Below, piece after piece: positions 1,564 to 5,425 of a stretch of 26,830 nt of DNA. Within the stretch, counting starts at the first letter, position 1, and every line of letters begins with the position of its first letter. Made by a program: the position numbers and the translations under genes. Source of the stretch: a virus; IMG/VR virus record IMGVR_UViG_3300042865_000417, positions 1 through 26,830 of that record; one strand, 5' to 3'. The notes beneath the pieces are model-generated. The model made no database searches, was not told the origin of the DNA, and worked only from the letters and a program-made list of their open reading frames with translations.

Positions 1564-1614
1564 AACCCCTACTTTAGTGTGGCCTCTTGGCGGTGGCGCA
1601 CTTTAGTAGGGGTT
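1564..1614. terminator. Imperfect 16-bp inverted repeat, terminator or leader hairpin
   Basis: AACCCCTACTTTAGTG (1564-1579) pairs with CACTTTAGTAGGGGTT (1599-1614), 14 of 16 positions complementary with two central T-T mismatches and a 19-base GC-rich loop. The right arm runs into TTTCTTT, so it resembles an intrinsic terminator after the nuclease gene. It also lies downstream of a promoter candidate, so it could instead be an attenuator or a structural element of the primase leader. Confidence 0.55.
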
Positions 1615-1631
1615 TCTTTAATAATAAAATT

Positions 1632-3743
1632 ATGATATCAGTATTTAATAGCGCAAAAAGTAATACATCAGAAGCCAGCATTGAGGTTGATGAATATTTT
1701 GATGGCATAAAAAATGGCAGATGGCAAGATGAGGTGCTTAACTTTCGTGCCGGGCGCACACAAAAAGAGTTAACAACTTGCGTTACTGCTTCAGGTAGCT
1801 TTAAACAAAGAGCAGCTAATAAATTGCTTGAGCATAGTGGTTTCATTTGCCTTGACATTGATGCGAAAGACCAAATAGCTGAAGTTGATATTGAAAGAAT
1901 AAAACGTAACGAATATGTTTACTCGGTGCATCGTTCATTGAGTGGTAATGGGTATGCAGTCTTTATTCGCATTGATGGGACAAGGCATTTAGATGCATTT
2001 CTTTCACTTGAAAATTACTTTATGGTGCAGTTTTCAATTGTGCTGGATAAATCGTGCAAGGACACATCTCGATTACGTTTTGTGTCTTATGATCCAGACA
2101 TCTACATTAATAAAAAAGCAAAATCATTTAAGACCTATCTCAAGAAAAAAGACAAACCCAAGGCAAAGCCTGTGGTGGTTAAAACTGATTTTGATGAAAT
2201 GGTAGTCAAGGCTGCACCTATGAATCTTTTCGATAACTACGAAGATTACATTCGCCTTGCATTTGCTTTAACCCAAGAATTTAGTGAAAGTGGTCGCAAC
2301 TACTTCCATTCACTTTGCCAATCATCGCCAAAATATTCGCATAGGCAAGCCGAAAAGGATTATAATGTAGCGTTGCAACGAAGTGGAACTGGAGTGAGCA
2401 TTGCATCTATCTACTACATTTTTCGCCAAGCAGGTATCAGCACAACATCTGAACGCACCGAGAAAATAAAGAGCATTGTCAAACTATCTGATAATCCAAA
2501 AGAGGAGCTTGCAAAGTTAAACATTACCGATGCCGATGAATTTCTTAAACCTAATTTAAAAAAAGAAAATACAGAGATTGATGAAATCATTGAACTTATC
2601 AAATTAAACAATGTAAAATTTAACGAAATTACACGAAATTTTGAATTCAATGGTGAAGAAATGACCGATCGAATATTGGCTAATTTCTACACCAAAGTTT
2701 GGCAGAAAATTGATGATGGAATTTCAAAGGATAAAGTGTTTACATTGATTCAAAATAAAGACAATAGCACATCTTATAACCCGATTAAAGATTGGTTTGA
2801 ACGTAATTTACATCTGCAAACTAATAATGAATTTGATAAGTTAAAAAAGTGCTTTGAAATAGAGCAATTGATTTATGAAAACGATGGTGTATACACATTT
2901 GATGACTATTTAGATACATACCTAAAAAAATGGTTATTAGGTATTATTGGTTCTGCCTATGGCACTTATTCGCTAATGATATTAGTGATTACTGGAGAAC
3001 AAGGTATAAAGAAAACAGAATTCTATAGAAACCTATTGCCGAAAGATTTGCGTAAATTTTATGCTGAAAGCAACTTGGATGAGGGCAAAGACTCTGAAAT
3101 TCTAATGACAAAAAAATTGCTTATTGTTGATGATGAGTTTGGCGGTAAGTCAAAAAAAGATGCCACAAAATTAAAGCGTATGAGTAGCCAGCAAACTTTC
3201 TCCATTCGTATGCCATATGGAAGAGTTTCTGAAGACCTGATGAGATTGGCAGTTCTTGGAGGAACTTCAAACGATGCCGAGGTAATTAATGACCCAACCG
3301 GAAACCGAAGAATTATCCCAATAAACCTGATTAGCTTTGATTTTGATTCATACATTAAGATTGATAAGGACAAACTATTTATTGAGCTTTACAACGAATG
3401 GAAAAGTGATAAAGAGGCTTGGTTCTTAACCAAAAGAGAAATTGAATACCTGAACAAAGCAAACGAAAAAAACATCGAAGTTATGAGCGAGGTAGAATTG
3501 ATAAACAAAAACATTATTTATGACCCAACAAGCAAAATGACAAACACCGATGTCATCCTTGAATTGCAAAAATTACATCCAACTTTCAAAACTAACACCA
3601 AACGAATGGGTCAAGCTTTAAAAAAATGTGGCTATTTTCAGCAAGTCATGAAGGTAGGTACAAAAGTAATTCGCGCTTACGAGATAAAAATCAAAGGATC
3701 TGTAACCTCTTATAGTATTGAAAATCAAAATGATACGTTCTAA
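1632..3743 (+). CDS. Primase-helicase (VirE_N/BT4734-like, PriCT-like and VapE domains)
   Basis: The 703-residue protein combines a primase-like N-terminus with a VapE-type ATPase. The N-terminal AEP-like domain shows CLDID with D75 and D77 as the probable metal pair, then SGNGYAVFIRID, then KDTSRLRFVSYDP. Residues about 198-270 look like a PriCT_2 helical linker. The ATPase has a Walker A position GEQGIKKT (455-462), Walker B LLIVDDE (D500, D501), a GTSN sensor (544-547) and PTGNRR (555-560) with a probable arginine finger. Such proteins prime and unwind phage DNA at the origin. The usual glycine before the P-loop lysine is replaced by lysine. I take the ATG at 1632 because a TTG at 1587 in the same frame lies inside the hairpin. 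An origin-like repeat cluster begins inside its 3' end. Confidence 0.85.
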   Translation: MISVFNSAKSNTSEASIEVDEYFDGIKNGRWQDEVLNFRAGRTQKELTTCVTASGSFKQRAANKLLEHSGFICLDIDAKDQIAEVDIERIKRNEYVYSVHRSLSGNGYAVFIRIDGTRHLDAFLSLENYFMVQFSIVLDKSCKDTSRLRFVSYDPDIYINKKAKSFKTYLKKKDKPKAKPVVVKTDFDEMVVKAAPMNLFDNYEDYIRLAFALTQEFSESGRNYFHSLCQSSPKYSHRQAEKDYNVALQRSGTGVSIASIYYIFRQAGISTTSERTEKIKSIVKLSDNPKEELAKLNITDADEFLKPNLKKENTEIDEIIELIKLNNVKFNEITRNFEFNGEEMTDRILANFYTKVWQKIDDGISKDKVFTLIQNKDNSTSYNPIKDWFERNLHLQTNNEFDKLKKCFEIEQLIYENDGVYTFDDYLDTYLKKWLLGIIGSAYGTYSLMILVITGEQGIKKTEFYRNLLPKDLRKFYAESNLDEGKDSEILMTKKLLIVDDEFGGKSKKDATKLKRMSSQQTFSIRMPYGRVSEDLMRLAVLGGTSNDAEVINDPTGNRRIIPINLISFDFDSYIKIDKDKLFIELYNEWKSDKEAWFLTKREIEYLNKANEKNIEVMSEVELINKNIIYDPTSKMTNTDVILELQKLHPTFKTNTKRMGQALKKCGYFQQVMKVGTKVIRAYEIKIKGSVTSYSIENQNDTF

Positions 3744-3931
3744 AGGTTACAGATTACACATAAAAAGCGAATTTCTATTATGCTGTATAAAATAATGTGT
3801 GCGTGTGTGTGCGTGTGTGTATAATGTATAGTAAGTTAAATAAATGATATAAATGTGTAAATCTGTAACTACCTTGCAAGAGTAAGTTACAGATTGAAAA
3901 AAAAGTGTAAACATCTGTAAAAACTGTAACT
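3698..3931. repeat. ATCTGTAAC repeat cluster, candidate replication origin or operator
   Basis: The 9-mer ATCTGTAAC or its complement occurs exactly at 3698-3706 (+), 3746-3754 (-), 3861-3869 (+) and 3886-3894 (-), with one-mismatch copies at 3913-3921 (+) and 3922-3930 (+). Three copies carry an adjacent GTGTAA, giving longer elements at 3745-3761 (complement) and 3853-3870 that face each other across a GT tract. The pair at 3860-3870 and 3885-3895 is a perfect 11-bp inverted repeat with a 14-base spacer. The cluster fills the non-coding gap between two replication genes and overlaps the helicase start. Iteron-type origin or repressor operator are both possible. Confidence 0.7.
3795..3823. 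repeat. Alternating purine-pyrimidine (GT)n tract
   Basis: Twenty-nine consecutive bases alternate purine and pyrimidine, mostly GT with two GC steps, including a perfect tandem decamer GCGTGTGTGT at 3801-3820. Such tracts can adopt Z-DNA or melt under superhelical stress. It sits midway between oppositely oriented copies of the surrounding repeat, in an otherwise AT-rich gap, which fits an origin or a regulatory region. Confidence 0.7.
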
Positions 3932-5425
3932 ATGTTGAGAGAATACCAAAAACAAGCAATAACATTAATTGAGAGCAATCAAAATAAAAACATCGCTCTA
4001 CAAATGCCAACCGGAAGTGGCAAAACTTTTACTTTTTGCGAAGTCGCTAAAAGGCATTACGCAGAAAATATTACAAGTGTGTTAATATTGGTGCATAGAC
4101 AAGAATTACTACAACAAGCAAAAAATAGTCTTGGAGAACGTTGTTTTTTAATCGAAGCAGGTGTTAAATCAATACCAAATGATTATGCCTACTATGTTGG
4201 TATGGTAGAAACTGTCGCAAGAAGAATAAATAAACTACCTAAATTTGGATTGGTAATTATTGATGAGTGTCACATCGGTAACTTTAAGAAAATGCCATTC
4301 TTTGAGCAAGAAAATTGCAAAGTGTTAGGAGTTACTGCAACACCAATAAATGAATACCCATTGGCAAACTATTATGCTGAACTATTGCAACCAGTTACCA
4401 TTACCGATTTGATTGATAATAATTATTTATTGAATTGTGATGCCTACGGATTTGCATCTGATTTAGTGGCAGCTCAAAAGTTTAAAATCAAAGGCGGTGA
4501 ATTTGATGAAAAAGAAATGGAGGAATTTTACTCAAGCGAAAAGATGGTTAACAATGTGATTGAAAGCTATTGGAAATTATCAGCAGGTAAAAAAACATTA
4601 ATATTCAATGTAAACTTAAAACATAACGATGCGGTTTATTCTGCGTTATTACTTGAGGGATTAAATGTGTATAGTATAACAGGTGAAACTGAAAAAAAAG
4701 AACGTGCTGAAATCCTACAAAAGTTTAAGCAAGAACCTGATGCCATAATTTGCAATGTTGGTGTGTTGACTGCTGGATTCGATGAACCAACCATTGAAAC
4801 CATTATTCTTAACCGGGCAACTAAATCTTTATCACTATACCTCCAAATGATTGGCCGAGGATCAAGATTAAGCGAAAACAAAAGCAACTTTATTGTGATT
4901 GATTTGGGAAAAAATACTGCAAGACATGGTCAATACACCGACTTTTTTGATTGGCAAACATATTTTAAAAATGGCACTAAAAAAGAAAATAAAAGTGTTG
5001 GAATGTCACCAGTAAAGGAATGTCCAAATTGTGGACATCTTCAGCATACAAGAAAAATAAAGTGCGAAAGTTGTGGTCACGATTTTGAAGAGGAGAGAAA
5101 AGCACAAGAAGCAGAAGAGCAAATAAAACAACTTGTAAAACTAACCAGAGAAAAACCTATTAATATACCTACACAACATTTATTTCAATTAGCAGAGGAA
5201 CGTTGTTGGAATCCATACGGAGTATTGCACAAAATAACTGAACACATCATTGCGTACGAGTTAAAACATTCGCCAATAACAACGCATGAGCTTTCAGTTA
5301 AAATGGCAGGTGAGCAGTTATCTGTTTGGTGTAAAAAATATCAGAAGCAAAATAATAGTTGGCATCAAGATTTTATTGTAAATTTGTTGAATGCAAAAAG
5401 AAAAAAAGCAACAATCGGAGGATAA
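3932..5425 (+). CDS. SF2 DEAD/DEAH-like DNA helicase with C-terminal zinc ribbon
   Basis: The 497-residue protein has the full SF2 set: LREYQ near the start (residues 2-6), Walker A PTGSGKT (26-32), Walker B DECH (111-114), motif III TATP (135-138) and motif VI QMIGRGSR (305-312). The arrangement is that of the RecG/UvrB/RAD25-like phage helicases (ResIII plus Helicase_C). A four-cysteine zinc ribbon follows at C364, C367, C378 and C381, then a charged helical tail. The likely role is ATP-driven unwinding or branch processing during phage replication. The ATG is at the end of the repeat cluster, so expression may be controlled there. The 3' end overlaps the VRR-NUC gene by 35 bases, suggesting the two act as a helicase-nuclease pair. 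Confidence 0.88.
   Translation: MLREYQKQAITLIESNQNKNIALQMPTGSGKTFTFCEVAKRHYAENITSVLILVHRQELLQQAKNSLGERCFLIEAGVKSIPNDYAYYVGMVETVARRINKLPKFGLVIIDECHIGNFKKMPFFEQENCKVLGVTATPINEYPLANYYAELLQPVTITDLIDNNYLLNCDAYGFASDLVAAQKFKIKGGEFDEKEMEEFYSSEKMVNNVIESYWKLSAGKKTLIFNVNLKHNDAVYSALLLEGLNVYSITGETEKKERAEILQKFKQEPDAIICNVGVLTAGFDEPTIETIILNRATKSLSLYLQMIGRGSRLSENKSNFIVIDLGKNTARHGQYTDFFDWQTYFKNGTKKENKSVGMSPVKECPNCGHLQHTRKIKCESCGHDFEEERKAQEAEEQIKQLVKLTREKPINIPTQHLFQLAEERCWNPYGVLHKITEHIIAYELKHSPITTHELSVKMAGEQLSVWCKKYQKQNNSWHQDFIVNLLNAKRKKATIGG

Follow-up and report, generated by a model that had tools for sequence, protein, structure and literature searches.

We identified, at positions 3698-3930 of the virus record IMGVR_UViG_3300042865_000417 (its 26,830 bases, referred to below as the window), an array of short repeats that is most probably a phage replication origin, iteron-based and of SaPI/PICI type, that would be read by the C-terminal winged helix of the VapE-type initiator encoded beside it. 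The original prediction, made from the letters of the window, had proposed a candidate origin between two replication genes; on comparative evidence this stands as the best-supported reading, given that the array is found beside the primase-helicase gene across its relatives. It is refined in two respects, as the inverted repeat turned out to be incidental and the array to go with the primase-helicase and not with the following helicase.

A word search found four exact and two near copies of a 9-mer within about 230 bases, exactly where they had been predicted. The exact copies of ATCTGTAAC occupy 3698-3706 and 3861-3869 on the plus strand and 3746-3754 and 3886-3894 on the minus strand (where the plus strand reads GTTACAGAT), and are joined by two plus-strand variants with one mismatch each, namely ATCTGTAAA at 3913-3921 and AACTGTAAC at 3922-3930. 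The first copy lies within the last codons of the primase-helicase gene, the second just past its stop codon, and the last stops one base short of the helicase start codon (ATG 3932), so that the array does run, as proposed, from the 3' end of one gene to the start of the other. All four exact copies of the word in the whole record fall within 3698-3894, and 11 of 13 related virus records carry it as well, with 37 of 41 matches inside the array (coordinates converted); the 9-mer is thus far from being equally frequent elsewhere. Four copies of any non-simple 9-mer within 240 bp were seen in none of 300 dinucleotide shuffles (three or more copies in 66 of 300). A search of the whole window that allowed one mismatch returned 12 matches against 7.1 expected, a count reached by 7 of 100 shuffles; as the near copies alone are not unusual, it is the exact cluster that carries weight. 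The perfect 11-bp inverted repeat of the original prediction is present on direct reading (AATCTGTAACT at 3860-3870 and AGTTACAGATT at 3885-3895), a repeat search with a minimum length of 12 not listing it. The GC skew is almost uniformly of one sign across the window and therefore uninformative.

The six copies form two sets (3698 and 3746 on one side, the four at 3861-3930 on the other) that flank an AT-rich gap of 106 bp (3755-3860, 73% AT), which we propose as the melting site on the grounds of its sequence and composition. Within it lies a 29-base tract of alternating purines and pyrimidines (3795-3823; TG, CG and TA steps), the sole such run of at least 16 bases in the window, and a run of at least 23 bases follows the initiator stop codon in all 39 close loci described below (in one of them, L049, partly recomposed, with TA and CA steps). 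Z-DNA formation or easy melting is conceivable for such a tract. We rejected the idea that no part of the window is less stable than the gap, since its computed duplex stability ranks 1334th among 26,750 80-bp windows.

The gene that leads into the array encodes a VapE-type primase-helicase, the likely initiator, on the plus strand (1632-3743; assigned from the open reading frame, Pfam, PHROGs, an AlphaFold2 model and a fold match to PriRep1). Its reading frame, as listed, spans 1587-3743 and opens at TTG 1587, ATG 1632 being the likelier start. A BT4734-like N-terminal domain (PF08800), PriCT-2 (PF08707) and a VapE-like helicase domain (PF05272) all score above the Pfam cut-off, and the staphylococcal initiator PriRep1 (7pds) is matched by both sequence and fold, which makes the protein a VapE/D5-type helicase with a fused primase. 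In the PDB sequence search 7pds was the sole strong match (E 5e-14), and it is also the nearest solved structure to the AlphaFold2 model (mean pLDDT 81, pTM 0.48), with a VIA-align Z of 22.2 over 358 residues, followed by NrS-1 (Z 13.3), the SaPI5 primase-helicase (Z 11.8) and vaccinia D5 (Z 11.4). The C-terminal end of the model consists of two helices (residues 638-648 and 656-665) and two strands (671-675 and 678-683), which we read as a winged helix (3543-3692, plus strand) and propose, from this modelled secondary structure and from the covariation reported below, as the iteron reader. K674 (model numbering; codon 3651-3653), in the first wing strand, is a candidate specificity residue.

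On the far side of the array lies a ResIII/DEAD-type helicase gene (3932-5425, plus strand; Pfam), followed by a VRR-NUC protein and, further on, by terminase and portal-like genes; genes for an SSB-like DUF3127 protein and for an exonuclease-like one lie upstream of the primase-helicase. The record represents the whole or part of a tailed-phage genome, with genes for the large subunit of terminase and for a portal-like protein (PHROGs); possessing these, it does not fit a PICI, a satellite that relies on the virion genes of a helper phage. Because its proteins have their best annotated relatives in phages of Nonlabens, Cellulophaga and Flavobacterium, its host is likely a member of the Bacteroidota.

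Among the 39 close loci (at least 82% identity, window included) the array is kept in every one, and the helicase gene follows it directly in 28. In the remaining 11 (e.g. L043, L016 and L024) another gene comes next and the array is still there, for which reason the helicase was rejected as its owner; comparison of these loci indicates that the array belongs to the primase-helicase (probably through its C-terminal winged helix, in view of the covariation reported below) and not to the helicase that follows. In one locus (L068) the initiator reading frame stops just upstream of the first iterons and the TGTAAC copies are nevertheless present, which suggests that it is the DNA of the array, and not the peptide encoded by it, that is preserved. 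Two different primase loci (L019 and L025, 91% and 95% identical to the window) occur in a single 39.6-kb contig (IMGVR_UViG_3300042310_000167), which is either a chimeric assembly or a double element.

These observations also bear on the reading of the repeats as an operator, bound by a phage repressor or activator, or by the primase-helicase itself, in control of the helicase operon. Such a role would suit an array that reaches the helicase start codon, cooperative 9-mer sites can be operators, and autoregulation by the initiator would be compatible with an origin; on the other hand, the array persists where a nuclease gene or some other gene comes next, and the stretch 3500-4100 shows neither a terminator-like site nor an excess of sigma-70-like promoters. 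We consider an operator improbable, an alternative that the original prediction had put beside the origin and that is weakened by the persistence of the array with the initiator as well as by the covariation described below.

The two inverted pairs of the array differ in their conservation. The left-hand pair (TGTAAC...GTTACA), which brackets the initiator stop codon and comprises the first two iterons, occurs in all 39 close loci, and the right-hand pair in 15 of 39 (11 of 29 distinct downstream sequences). As the latter is missing from 24 loci in which single iterons remain, we rejected the inverted repeat as a functional unit. The same loss counts against RNA hairpins, i.e. inverted repeats serving as a terminator, attenuator or processing site, a reading that gains something from the intergenic RNA folding better than most shuffles (z -2.4) and that we regard as highly improbable: a terminator or known RNA was rejected, as 3500-4100 holds no terminator-like site and no RNA family came near threshold.

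Beyond the close loci, alignment-based scans reached relatives down to 31% identity (a scan of genome contigs gave 4 loci), from which we assembled 45 loci with distinct C-terminal tails (31-100% identity; identical tails merged, and loci with less than 330 bp past the stop codon dropped) and computed a blind 7-mer cluster score along each of them. In 35 of the 45 relatives the highest score along the locus fell in the 400 bp at the 3' end of the initiator gene. Six more (L050, L051, L053, L054, L057 and L058) carry the array just upstream of the initiator gene, and one (L064) has the array together with a different, higher-scoring second cluster (at least nine copies of TTAATAC about 2.1-2.3 kb past the primase stop codon, outside the origin region). 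By the same score three loci (L080, L086 and L088) have no array adjoining the gene; L086 bears a seven-copy AGCAACA array away from the primase, about 3 kb upstream of the gene and some 5.5 kb ahead of the primase stop codon. The putative origin thus sits immediately 3' of the initiator gene, with the exception of the L050-L058 clade, in which the helicase gene comes almost directly after the initiator gene and the array lies upstream of the latter, an arrangement that speaks against an operator of the helicase operon.

Among further, more distant loci (12 taken, L138 having no stop codon in the available DNA), an array lies no more than about 440 bp from the stop codon in 10 of 11, with other iterons again; the eleventh (L142) shows none in the 244 bp that follow the stop. 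No array was found in Cellulophaga phage phi46:1, and Nonlabens P12024S gave weak matches only. From the 19 loci of another scan we took the L206 genome (via L091) together with L207, L213, L214, L218, L220 and L223: repeat clusters follow the gene in L218 (11 copies of GTAGTAA), L207, L213 and L214, and no repeat cluster was seen after the gene in L223 or, on the wrong strand only, in L220. The search for the same element at this locus in related genomes, proposed with the original prediction, thus returned it beside the primase-helicase gene in the majority of relatives, including some as distant as about 31% identity, the opposite of the lack of enrichment that would have spoken against an origin.

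TGTAAC arrays are also met in other viral contigs, beside unrelated genes. At least 80 viral loci contain the 15-mer formed by two iterons, and among the matches listed 29 have four or more TGTAAC/GTTACA copies within 300 bp; as some arrays among these listed matches adjoin unrelated genes, the 6-mer TGTAAC alone was rejected as diagnostic. In L290 (a 5.6-kb contig) a TGTAAC array lies upstream of a tyrosine integrase gene, and in L279 upstream of a terminase gpA gene. Symmetric TGTAAC/GTTACA arrays that overlap small ORFs were noted in the related contigs L241, L276, L227 and L263 (the one ORF scanned, under the L227 array, has no Pfam match). Arrays beside a terminase or an integrase gene in unrelated contigs would be in keeping with another kind of phage DNA site, such as a partition, packaging or recombination target; across many different iterons, however, the array goes with the initiator and not with terminase or integrase, which leaves such a site a distinctly improbable explanation.

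The iterons differ by lineage: TGTAAC in the window clade, TGTAAAC in L036, L056 and L061, TGTAAT in L051, L057, L058, L062 and L064, CTGTTCC in L060, GTAGTA in L076, L082 and L092, GGTAAG in L137 and L157, TGTTGCA in L132, and others. Given the rest of the protein, iteron similarity correlates with C-terminal domain identity (partial rank r 0.41 over 40 loci, reached by 0 of 999 permutations; the L091 protein was entered as a 412-residue part); for pairs with less than 50% body identity the correlation is not significant (r 0.16, reached by 69 of 999 permutations). Iteron words are shared by L137 and L157 (36% body and 48% C-terminal identity) and by L076 and L092 (32% and 35%). As judged from these sequence comparisons, the iterons track the winged helix at the C terminus more closely than they do the remainder of the protein, a covariation that is a further point against the operator reading.

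Closely related pairs illustrate the same coupling. The primases of L051 and L053 are 98% identical and their iterons read GTGTAAT and TGTAACC, respectively; their C-terminal differences comprise C682K, V688T and one extra residue, and C682K also separates L051 from L050, which bears TGTAACC iterons and K682. Since the array of L051 and L053 lies about 2 kb from codon 682, linkage by adjacency does not explain the pairing. L132 and L144 differ at 7 of 716 residues, with 6 of these differences falling within 693-711, and at the DNA level they match at about 97-100% along most of the gene but at about 70-74% from around codon 688 through the array, so that wing and origin likely moved together by recombination. 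In a switch tree built on the protein minus its last 105 residues, with C or T after TGTAA scored against a basic or non-basic wing residue, each character changed three times and the changes coincided in three of three independent pairs (sign test p 0.25). The iteron labels were set by hand (L066 having T 4 and G 5); L036 was absent from the tree, and no label was given to L056, L061 and L059 (TGTAAA), L060 (CTGTTC), L016 (mixed) or L055 (array not wholly within the stretch read). This pattern carries the suggestion that the wing residue may set the base after TGTAA (basic with C, non-basic with T). L016 departs from this, a basic wing residue going with a mixture of iterons (C 3, T 5), and the newly scanned loci that were looked at bear other iterons, except for L201, where the C-terminal domain has the same sequence as in L069.

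The array stays with its initiator, its iterons follow the C-terminal domain and PriRep1 is the nearest structure, which together point to a PICI/SaPI-type origin in ordinary phages of Bacteroidota. According to PMC6092414, PICI origins lie directly downstream of rep and always consist of two iteron sets around an AT-rich region; a PICI rep-ori module is reported there to sustain the replication of a plasmid in E. coli. The resemblance lies in the position 3' of a primase-helicase initiator, the two iteron sets, the AT-rich region and iterons that vary between elements (PMC6092414). Unlike those satellites, the elements described here are phages with terminase, portal and other structural genes; moreover, the gap in the window clade holds the alternating purine-pyrimidine tract, and one clade has its array upstream of the gene. 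The original prediction had pointed to the iteron origins known in many phages, and the SaPI/PICI origin is the closer known design. The C-terminal domains of SaPI Rep and of Cch2 recognise or bind repeats just downstream of their genes (PMC7581432). SCCmec Cch2 is likewise a helicase of the D5 family, and its C-terminal domain in isolation binds the direct repeats of the putative origin next to the 3' end of its gene; it differs in using a separate primase pair and three 5-nt iterons (PMC7581432), as opposed to one fused protein and iterons of about 9 nt here. PriRep1 of Staphylococcus (7pds, 'similar to D. nodosus vapE') is the best structural match, the C-terminal part included, albeit at 18% identity over the aligned part. 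P4 alpha, named in PMC6092414, is likewise the replication protein of a phage satellite and has its own cognate origin there.

Taking SaPI Rep and Cch2 as models, we envisage that the primase-helicase would bind the ATCTGTAAC iterons through its C-terminal winged helix, and that two hexamers would assemble on the two iteron sets that flank the gap. These could open the AT-rich gap with its alternating tract and, once opened, load themselves on the single strands, after which the N-terminal primase domain would prime synthesis.

In some relatives a nuclease gene adjoins the array. The 196-residue gene between array and helicase in L016 (7407-7997) matches MUG113 and T5orf172 above cut-off (a GIY-YIG-type nuclease), and its C-terminal part matches the profile of the primase C-terminal domain with E 2.9e-7 among 5200 ORFs (0 of 1000 shuffles), the remaining matches of that profile being primases or pieces of primases; a scan for further relatives of this nuclease returned its own contig only. 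The cultured Flavobacterium phage mumin6-4 (MN812223; L039, 5170-6090) has an annotated nuclease gene (gp039) directly after the primase gene; two GTTACC iterons precede it and the remainder of the GGTAAC array follows, at about 16.9-17.2 kb of the genome. The C-terminal half of this nuclease aligns with the C terminus of the phage's own primase (BLASTP E 0.002 in a single comparison; 0 of 1000 shuffles). The layout equals that of L016, with a weaker similarity to the winged-helix domain. In L080 the start of such a nuclease gene follows the primase.

The L016 gene is possibly an origin-directed nuclease. Odn of ICP1 offers a parallel for the L016 and L039 nucleases, for it joins an endonuclease domain to an initiator-like DNA-binding domain and cuts the satellite origin at its iterons; Odn targets the origin of a satellite from another genome (PMC8263062), whereas the genes in L016 and L039 adjoin the phage's own putative origin. 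Rather tentatively, we suggest an origin arms race in Bacteroidota phages, in which GIY-YIG nucleases equipped with the initiator's iteron-reading domain would cut competing origins and thereby drive paired changes of iterons and wing, single wing changes (K/R versus C/L/Y) switching the base read after TGTAA.

According to PMC6092414, the PICI origin layout is absent from every other known bacterial replicon, and we found no earlier description of such an origin in Bacteroidota phages in the open-access literature (most subscription journals lying outside it). Contrary to that statement, the phages of this family, judging by their sequences, do appear to have it. This bacterial virus would thus very probably start the copying of its DNA at nine-letter words read by the tail end of the adjoining enzyme, words and tail changing together in its relatives, and the presence of a nuclease beside the array suggests that such origins may be targets in phage-phage conflicts.
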